NCBI GenBank assembly: GCA_947475175.1
Contig: CANJLN010000012.1
Coordinates: forward strand, 1-32,540
DNA from: Alphaproteobacteria bacterium
Lineage (GTDB): Bacteria; Pseudomonadota; Alphaproteobacteria; Paracaedibacterales; CAIULA01
Length of the DNA: 32,540 nt
Reading direction: 5' to 3'
Shown: positions 29,282 to 32,092 of the stretch, piece by piece
Layout: each line of letters opens with the position of its first letter
Numbering within the stretch: position 1 is the stretch's first letter
Notes under the pieces: model-generated
Told to the model about the DNA's origin: nothing
Seen by the model: the letters and a program-made list of their open reading frames with translations, nothing else
The model's database searches: none
Program-made: the position numbers and the translations under genes

Positions 29282-29863
29282 TTACCTAACGGCGTGAATC
29301 ACTGTGGTGACCACGCCCCAAATGGTAAAAGACATGGATTCTGTCACTTGTATGGGGTGAAAGTCTGGGTTTTCAGGCATAAGGTAAATCAGGTCACTTT
29401 CTATCTTAAGCCGTTTAACAGTTAATTCTCCGTCTAATACCGCAATGACAATATCGTTTTGTTTCGGTTTAAGCCCGCGATCAACAATCAAAACATCCTG
29501 GTGGTTAATGCCAGTATTAATCATAGAATCACCCGTAACACGTACAAAGAAAGTCGTGGCCGGGTGTTTGATCAGATGTTCATTCAGATCCAAAGCTGTT
29601 TCGATTGAATCATCTGCCGGAGAGGGGGCACCCGCCGAAACAGCACTGGCATAAAGAGGAAGAGAGTAAGATTTCTCAGAAAAATCAGAAGAATACAAAC
29701 CTTCTATCGTTCCGTCGTGATTTTTTGCTCTGAAAGTTGATTCCAAGAATTTTTTGACAGCCGGAATCATACTTAAAGGAAGACGGACAGGCTTTGTTTC
29801 TTCTTTATAGGTGCCACTTAATTGCTTGCGACCGGCTCCTGCACGAAAACCACCTCTTGCCAT
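29282..29863 (-). CDS. UmuD/LexA-like S24 self-cleaving protein with N-terminal DNA-binding-like extension
   Basis: A 193-aa protein. The C-terminal S24 domain matches UmuD: cleavage site A77-G78 in VSAGAPSPADD, nucleophile S113 in TGDSM, and K150 in ELTVKRL. The G-S-K spacings (35 and 37) are the same as E. coli UmuD (25, 60, 97). The N-terminus is about 53 residues longer than UmuD. It starts RGGFRAGAGRKQ (a basic GGxRxGAGRK motif seen in several DNA-binding proteins), then TKPVRLPLSMIPAVKKFLES, which could be a ribbon-helix-helix. No umuC is nearby. It has its own strong promoter with an overlapping palindrome, fitting a self-cleaving repressor like UmuDAb, or a stand-alone Pol V subunit. 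Repressor function is inferred. Confidence 0.82.
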   Translation of the reverse strand: MARGGFRAGAGRKQLSGTYKEETKPVRLPLSMIPAVKKFLESTFRAKNHDGTIEGLYSSDFSEKSYSLPLYASAVSAGAPSPADDSIETALDLNEHLIKHPATTFFVRVTGDSMINTGINHQDVLIVDRGLKPKQNDIVIAVLDGELTVKRLKIESDLIYLMPENPDFHPIQVTESMSFTIWGVVTTVIHAVR

Positions 29864-29878
29864 CGCTGCATCCTTTTA

Positions 29879-29926
29879 TATGATTACTGTTTCAATAATC
29901 ATAAAAGAGATGAGGTGTTGTGTCAA
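29879..29926 (-). promoter_or_regulatory. Strong promoter with overlapping operator for the S24 gene
   Basis: On the minus strand, TTGACA (29921-29926) is separated by 17 bp from TATGAT (29898-29903), a near-consensus sigma-70 promoter. A perfect inverted repeat TATGATTA-9 bp-TAATCATA (29879-29886 and 29896-29903) covers the -10 box and the start region. It ends 15 bp before the ATG. That is where an autorepressor would bind. It does not match the GAAC-N7-GAAC alphaproteobacterial LexA box. AAGGA precedes the ATG. Confidence 0.75.
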
Positions 29927-30674: not shown

Positions 30675-30719
30675 TGGTGCCGGTTGGGGGACTCGAACTC
30701 CCGACCTACTGATTACAAA
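30675..30719 (-). other. 3' fragment of tRNA-Thr(TGT), probable attachment site
   Basis: Read on the minus strand, the segment runs from an anticodon loop TTTGTAA (anticodon TGT) through stem ATCAGT, AGGTC, a T-arm GGGAGTTCGAACTCCC, to CCGGCACCA with encoded CCA. The D-arm and 5' acceptor half are missing, and the T-loop is one base short. It is therefore a fragment rather than a gene. A 3' tRNA remnant directly beside a P4-type integrase is the classic att end of an integrated element. The intact tRNA-Thr should lie at the other end, outside the window. Confidence 0.8.
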
Positions 30720-30838
30720 TGAGAAGGTTTAATATTTATGTTCATATATAGAACTAGATAAACCTTTACAAAGCCTCACATTTTCGCTAAATCATATTTA
30801 TGAAACTTTATAAAAGATCATCAGAATACACCTCTAAA

Positions 30839-30931: not shown

Positions 30932-32092
30932 ATGAAGTCACAAGAAAATACCTTTAACTTTACCAAGAAGATTTTAGATAGCCTTCCTCTACCTCCGGAA
31001 GGCAAGCGTTTTTACCTTTATGATATCAAAGTCCGAGGCCTTGAGTTGATGGTAACAGAGCAAGGCTCCAAATCATTTAAAGTTTATCGTAAATGTAATG
31101 GGAAGCCTGTCAGGGTGACTCTTGGCAAATACCCTGAGATGACGATTGAGAATGCCCGCCACCAAGCTCAAAGTATCATTACAGATATGCTCAATGGCAA
31201 AAACCCGAATGAGGAAAAGAAAACACTTCGCGAGGAGACCGCTTTGGGGGATATGTTTGTTTTGTTTATGGAACGCTACAGTAAACATCACAAGAAAACC
31301 TGGAAAGATGATGAAAAGGATGTTCCACGCTTTCTGGGGCACTGGTTCAAAAGAAAATTATCAGCTATCAGCAAGCAAGACATACAAACACTTCATGAAA
31401 AGATTAGAACCGAGAACGGTCTTTATCAAGCCAATCGTCTGCTGGCAAGAATTCATATTATTTACAACAAAGCTATCGAGTGGGGATGGGAAGGAATCAA
31501 TCCAGCTCAAGGCGTTAAGAAGTTCAAGGAAAAATCAAGGGATAGATTCTTGCACCCCGATGAATTACCCCATTTTTTTGAAAGCCTGGATTTAGAGGAA
31601 AATGATTCTATTCGAGAGTACATCTATGTTTCTCTTTTAACGGGAGTGAGGAAGTCCAACGTTCTGGCTATGCGTTGGGAAGACATTTATTTTGAAAGAA
31701 GAGAGTGGCTTATACCGGAAACCAAGAACGGTGATTCTCTTCGCGTGCACTTAATCGAAAAAGTTATTGATATTCTGAAAGGACGTGCTGAGAGATACCC
31801 TCGAAGGGAATGGGTTTTTGAGGGGAAGGGAACAACAGGTCATTTAGTAGAACCAAAATCAGGTTGGAAAAGGATATTAGAGAGGGCAGGCATTAAGGAT
31901 TTACGACTTCATGATCTGAGAAGAACACTGGGAAGTTGGCAAGCCGCTACCGGTGCTAATAGTTTCATGATTGGTCAGTCTCTGGGACATAAGAGTACGC
32001 AATCTACAGCTGTTTATGCTCGGTTGAACATTGATCCTGTTAGAGATTCTGTTGAGAAGGCCACCCAAGCTATTTTGAACCATGCAAAGTAG
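30932..32092 (+). CDS. int: P4-type tyrosine recombinase (integrase)
   Basis: Site-specific integrase of 386 aa. The N-terminal arm-binding domain (DUF4102 type) at about 10-95 includes FYLYDIKVRGLELMVTEQGSKSF and RVTLGKYPEMTIENARHQA. A core-binding domain follows (about 105-190). The catalytic domain (about 205-380) has Arg in LLTGVRKSNVLAMRW, Lys in PETKNGDSLRV, H-x-x-R in RLHDLRRTLGSW, His in IGQSLGHKS and the Tyr nucleophile in AVYARL. All six active-site positions are accounted for, so it should be functional. It is preceded by the tRNA-Thr fragment and candidate arm sites, which fixes this as the left end of an integrative element running rightward. Confidence 0.95.
   Translation: MKSQENTFNFTKKILDSLPLPPEGKRFYLYDIKVRGLELMVTEQGSKSFKVYRKCNGKPVRVTLGKYPEMTIENARHQAQSIITDMLNGKNPNEEKKTLREETALGDMFVLFMERYSKHHKKTWKDDEKDVPRFLGHWFKRKLSAISKQDIQTLHEKIRTENGLYQANRLLARIHIIYNKAIEWGWEGINPAQGVKKFKEKSRDRFLHPDELPHFFESLDLEENDSIREYIYVSLLTGVRKSNVLAMRWEDIYFERREWLIPETKNGDSLRVHLIEKVIDILKGRAERYPRREWVFEGKGTTGHLVEPKSGWKRILERAGIKDLRLHDLRRTLGSWQAATGANSFMIGQSLGHKSTQSTAVYARLNIDPVRDSVEKATQAILNHAK

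Follow-up and report, generated by a model that had tools for sequence, protein, structure and literature searches.

The extended umuD gene on contig CANJLN010000012.1 (assembly GCA_947475175.1), whose whole stretch of 32,540 nucleotides we refer to as the window, very probably encodes a UmuDAb-type repressor that is cleavable by RecA, regulates its own expression and also switches an unlinked membrane-protein gene. Our best reading is that of a LexA-substituting autorepressor, kept after polymerase loss and controlling a tiny regulon. Below, G000 denotes the window genome, G001 a genome of the same genus, other G numbers further genomes and L numbers individual loci.

Table 1 Features of the extended umuD gene and its promoter in the window.
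Feature	Position	Strand	Remark
-35 box TTGACA	29921..29926	-	
-10 box TATGAT	29898..29903	-	within operator arm
Candidate operator TATGATTATTGAAACAGTAATCATA (minus-strand reading)	29879..29903	.	also written TGATTnnTGnnACAnnAATCA
Extended umuD (UmuDAb-type)	29282..29863	-	ATG start, 193 aa plus stop
N-terminal domain, residues 1-44 (GGFRAGAGRK..YKEETKPVRLPLSMIPAVKKFL)	29732..29863	-	putative DNA-binding part
S24 peptidase/dimerisation domain	29309..29659	-	PF00717, about 112-113 bits
Predicted self-cleavage site A77-G78	29630..29635	-	counterpart of UmuDAb A83-G84
Predicted catalytic Ser113	29525..29527	-	counterpart of UmuDAb S119
Predicted catalytic Lys150	29414..29416	-	counterpart of UmuDAb K156

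Protein architecture and kinship with UmuDAb

The 193-aa protein carries a single Pfam match, Peptidase_S24 at residues 69–185, and the LexA winged-helix DNA-binding domain was not seen. Its score for the NCBIfam model PRK10276 ('pol V autoproteolytic subunit') was 160 bits (cut-off 110), and its score for the NCBIfam lexA model lay under the cut-off. The UmuD-like S24 domain described in the initial annotation was borne out, with A77-G78, S113 and K150 all in place. Using the UmuDAb sequence of the A. baumannii chromosome as reference, BLASTP aligned window residues 4–193 at 40% identity (2e-47). In addition, a profile of residues 1–44, made from the window protein and 43 relatives with UmuDAb left out, found UmuDAb residues 8–44 with 51 bits at 8.8e-16, where 200 shuffles reached 5.0 bits at most, and none of the short UmuDs and LexAs included in this search scored above the shuffle level. 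As judged from these comparisons, the window protein is a UmuDAb homologue along its whole length, N-terminus included. The earlier suggestion of an independent analogue of UmuDAb was therefore abandoned on account of the homology of the N-terminal domains. In the BLASTP alignment, UmuDAb E24, K40N41, N100 and G124 correspond to window E21, K37K38, N94 and G118, respectively. According to the portions of the two papers cited here, mutation of UmuDAb E24 and K40N41 impairs binding and repression, and N100 and G124 are dimer residues with published mutants (PMC11332147, PMC4807011).

The fold of the N-terminus is less clear-cut. No Pfam family matched it at E 0.1; the helix-turn-helix-like N-terminus of UmuDAb was likewise missed by database searches, as its authors state in the section cited (PMC11332147). 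In several relatives, the S24 part is preceded by no more than about 45 residues. An AlphaFold2 model built on 44 sequences reached a mean pLDDT of 83 and exceeded 95 for most of the S24 part, with values of about 59 for residues 1–20 (a low-confidence tail), about 81 for residues 21–40 and below 50 for residues 55–62. The model is thus compatible with a DNA-binding fold but does not establish one: plain disorder of the N-terminus, which the initial annotation had named as counting against its idea, did not appear, and neither did a confident fold. The proposed ribbon-helix-helix found no backing, as the model gives a helix at residues 30–50 with moderate confidence and no confident second helix.

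The candidate operator within and beyond the order

At the promoter, the -35 and -10 boxes are separated by 17 bp and a perfect 8-9-8 palindrome (TATGATTA-N9-TAATCATA) spans the -10 box, confirming the arrangement first described. The exact pattern matched once in the window at up to two mismatches (0.02 matches expected). Taken alone, the palindrome is suggestive only, because 10 of 1000 dinucleotide-shuffled versions of the 100 bp upstream contained a perfect 8-bp inverted repeat with a 3–12 bp spacer, and conservation decides. Lack of such conservation had been set beforehand as the refutation of a self-cleaving autorepressor with its operator on the -10 box; orthologous promoters keep the palindrome, and this candidate is now well supported.

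To what extent the site is kept could be read from 28 scored extended-umuD genes (33 loci tried; 27 of those scored lie within the order and one, G054, in another order). A putative operator with the consensus TGATTnnTGT(n)ACAnnAATCA was matched at 12 or more of 16 positions upstream of all 28 (p ≤ 0.01 in 26), in a 21-bp form at 15 loci and in a 20-bp GTAC form at 13. When six promoters of the same family were aligned, the invariant columns fell mostly within TATGAT....G.AAC...A.TCATA. Scanning 58 genomes with one mismatch allowed returned 41 matches to the 21-bp form in 20 genomes, part of them coding coincidences, and matches to the 20-bp form in 13 genomes. As a control, both forms were reversed, and neither reversed pattern had a match in the same 58 genomes. 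The core of the window operator is GAAAC, as in G001 and G006, and that of most orthologues GTNAC or GTAC. Since the GTWAC core of UmuDAb is described as essential in gel shifts in the part of the study cited (PMC11332147), the affinity of the window operator may be weaker.

A scan of named genomes extended the comparison to 80 loci, 50 with the N-terminal motif and 30 without. Going by their record titles, the 50 extended loci include Pseudomonadota, Cyanobacteriota, Margulisiibacteriota, Verrucomicrobiota (Opitutia), Actinomycetota (Actinomarina) and one Flavobacteriales MAG, although single phylum cases may be misbinned because many of the 50 are MAGs. Two of the 80 loci were dropped from the operator comparison. 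An unbiased palindrome count was weak: of 48 extended upstream regions, 9 reached p of about 0.05 or below (78 of the 80 loci scored), and the consensus test was adopted for this reason. The consensus was present at 11 or more of 14 positions upstream of 39/50 extended but 1/28 short umuD genes (Fisher 4e-11, an optimistic value because the consensus was fixed after part of the same data had been seen), and at 12 or more positions upstream of 30/50 and 0/28, respectively. Among the loci that this test scored weakly or missed, six from Chromobacteriaceae carry TTGA-N4-GTAC-N4-TCAA, exact in five and with one mismatch in the sixth, which closely resembles the UmuDAb site TTGA(N4)GTWAC(N4)TCAA as printed in the excerpt cited (PMC11332147).

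Of four plasmid loci read (Legionella, Acinetobacter, Synechococcus), three had related, weaker palindromes at their extended umuD genes. At L222, an extended umuD preceded by a TTTTGATTCTCGTACGCAAATCAAAA palindrome lies on a viral contig, so gene and operator may travel together with phages and plasmids. Shorter S24 genes without the N-terminal domain carry the operator too (G007, G011, G026, G029). We noted a second S24 class of roughly 186–213 aa that is without the GGxRxGAGR domain and has its own GT(N)AC operator (L097, L099, L105, L007); it sometimes adjoins, or diverges from, extended umuD.

LexA, umuC and a second operator site

The window assembly (1.57 Mb, estimated 95.3% complete) contains an intact recA and one S24 protein; neither the LexA DNA-binding domain (PF01726) nor a second S24 protein was found in it. 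The initial remark that no umuC lies nearby was right and understated, as no IMS-family polymerase domain (PF00817) was found in the whole assembly. The order of the window genome includes Candidatus Odyssella, which NCBI places in Holosporales. LexA was found in 2 of its 42 genomes (G010, G012) and in none of the 30 with an intact extended umuD, which was counted in any genome whose match covered the N-terminal residues. Across all 58 genomes, LexA occurred in 0/32 with intact extended umuD versus 13/26 others, and within the order alone the association had p 0.08, both comparisons being uncorrected for relatedness. In G010, LexA is kept and both extended umuD and umuC are broken (G010:C28, G010:C68), as if the two repressor types replaced each other. 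As LexA and UmuC were not found in the window genome, its UmuD-like protein is probably a regulator only and not a polymerase subunit, which is also how UmuDAb is reported to act.

Only two intergenic operator sites within one mismatch were present in the window genome, one at the window gene and one at G000:C32:3464-3484. The latter has a perfect core and overlaps the -10 box of a TTGACA-16-TATGAT promoter, placed as at the window gene, 18 nt 5' of the ATG of an unlinked gene whose 90-aa product is predicted to have a single membrane helix. With the same operator over both -10 boxes, the switch would control at least itself and this membrane-protein gene. Relatives of the 90-aa gene in G001, G004, G005 and G007 likewise bear the operator, and dN of 0.08–0.09 against dS of 0.62–0.89 within one genus indicates purifying selection; two paralogues checked (L321, L322) had no operator. 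Other small one-helix proteins adjoin such an operator in G006 and in G019, G027 and G035 of family f6. In two f6 genomes (L089, L129), we observed a common small one-helix protein that starts MSLHHKH, ends FM(D/N)QMG and adjoins the operator, in one of them divergently from extended umuD. Known inhibitors of division that are induced by damage include Caulobacter SidA/DidA, Bacillus YneA and E. coli SulA, and several of these are small membrane proteins. On this precedent, our guess is that the one-helix proteins could be division inhibitors induced by damage.

Other candidate targets were set aside. The recA promoter of the window genome has no operator. In the Odyssella-like family f8, umuC was rejected as a target, with the operator absent at up to three mismatches from 10 of 11 upstream regions recovered; the exception is a perfect operator before a umuC copy in G036:C24. 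Another conserved element, about GGTTTTATATTCTTGTTAAGACCA, precedes most f8 umuC genes (L077-L081, L084, L085, L087, L088) and suggests a second, putative regulator of umuC in this family. One-mismatch sites of the TGATTTATGTAACAGAAATGA type lay within conserved coding sequence (read in L047, L065, L071) and were discarded. The other sites examined with two to three mismatches were mostly in ORFs, and the intergenic ones (L302, L303, L309, L310) had no strong palindrome.

Apart from the umuD locus, the window shows at 30677–30725 a stretch that by eye looks like the 3' portion of a tRNA gene, the plus-strand text being its complement, closely followed by a tyrosine integrase gene (30932–32092). 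ARAGORN found no complete tRNA, and the tRNA-like stretch may accordingly be the attachment-site remnant of an integrated element.

Proposed mechanism, alternative readings and known systems

In the scheme that we infer for DNA binding, cleavage, damage induction and membrane-protein function, the UmuD-like C-terminal domain would dimerise and thereby set two N-terminal domains on the palindrome over the gene's own -10 box, where the dimer would block RNA polymerase. Upon DNA damage, RecA filaments would stimulate self-cutting between Ala77 and Gly78 by the Ser113/Lys150 pair, and the cut would part the N-terminal domain from the dimerisation domain, so that the promoter opens.

The strongest competitor, which we nevertheless consider improbable, is an ordinary accessory UmuD of polymerase V whose extension serves some other function and whose palindrome is the site of another SOS-gene repressor. 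The S24 part indeed scores best as UmuD, and umuC follows the extended gene at 27 of the 47 such loci where 300 nt or more remained. This reading is at odds with the way the operator tracks the N-terminal domain among extended and short umuD genes, and with the homology of that domain to the UmuDAb portion required for repression; moreover, the window genome offers a single S24 protein, no LexA that could be found and no umuC to serve.

Less probable still is a relic, in which umuC was lost from the operon and the leftover umuD is decaying without present function. G001 does retain only a umuC fragment, beside umuD, and G010 has both genes broken. Against decay, the frame is intact and the comparison of extended umuD with its G001 orthologue gave dN 0.12 and dS 1.40 (0.09 and 0.62 for the N-terminal domain alone), indicating purifying selection; promoter and operator are intact in both the window genome and G001, and an unlinked gene bears a second intact operator. 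We give hardly any credence to the palindrome as an RNA or recombination feature (leader hairpin, transposon end): 8-bp inverted repeats can fold as hairpins and similar ones arise in shuffled sequence, but the overlap with the -10 box means that at most part of it is transcribed, and the same placement with a conserved core recurs in unlinked promoters and unrelated phyla.

The UmuDAb-type autorepressor remains our preferred reading. In the text portions cited, UmuDAb is described as exclusive to Acinetobacter (PMC10100956) or as a feature of the Moraxellaceae (PMC8565304), and as having possibly arisen by acquiring its N-terminal domain (PMC11332147). Within the excerpts consulted of the openly licensed PubMed Central literature (including PMC6511836), no description of this repressor type outside Acinetobacter/Moraxellaceae was found. 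We put at about even chances a wider proposal, namely that UmuDAb did not originate as an invention of Acinetobacter but belongs, as a single branch, to an old and widely shared second SOS switch (UmuD with a DNA-binding N-terminus and a TGAnT/TTGA-GT(n)AC operator, in at least six phyla), which replaces LexA in LexA-poor lineages such as the window's Holosporales-like order and is rewired there to the one-helix membrane proteins discussed above as possible division inhibitors. If domain and operator do occur together in Holosporales relatives, Legionella, marine Actinomarina/Thioglobus, Chromobacteriaceae and cyanobacteria, many genes named umuD would be repressors, LexA-less bacteria would be less unregulated than thought and their regulon would be readable from sequence. 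This would also allow a direct test of damage-switched genes in hard-to-grow intracellular alphaproteobacteria.

Among known systems, LexA shares the S24 self-cleavage domain and, by the scheme above, autorepression and the DNA-damage logic; it differs in that the window protein is without PF01726 and that the profile of residues 1–44 did not match the LexAs searched. HdiR and the non-canonical Bacteroidetes LexA are likewise S24 repressors standing in for LexA, of phage-repressor or separate origin according to the part of the source cited (PMC8565304), whereas the window protein has a UmuD body and the N-terminus without Pfam match described above. UmuD, MucA and RumA agree with the window protein in their C-terminal domain, cleavage site and spacing of Ser and Lys; in contrast to these, the window protein is extended by a further domain at its N-terminus, and no UmuC partner was found in its assembly. 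From UmuDAb of Acinetobacter, the window system differs in its operator arms (TGATT..AATCA as against TTGA..TCAA, one position off) and GAAAC core, in the overlap of the operator with the -10 box, where that of UmuDAb overlaps -35 elements in the section cited (PMC7273328), and in its second target, a small membrane protein instead of umuC. UmuDAb also has DdrR, encoded divergently, of which no relative was found here in 58 genomes by a search run without a positive control. In common with UmuDAb are homology over the whole length with the catalytic and dimerisation residues, a host in which neither LexA nor umuC was found, umuC having been lost or truncated in some UmuDAb lineages, and a conserved candidate operator at the gene's own promoter, whose inverted arms flank a core that is GTNAC or GTAC in most orthologues but GAAAC at the window gene.
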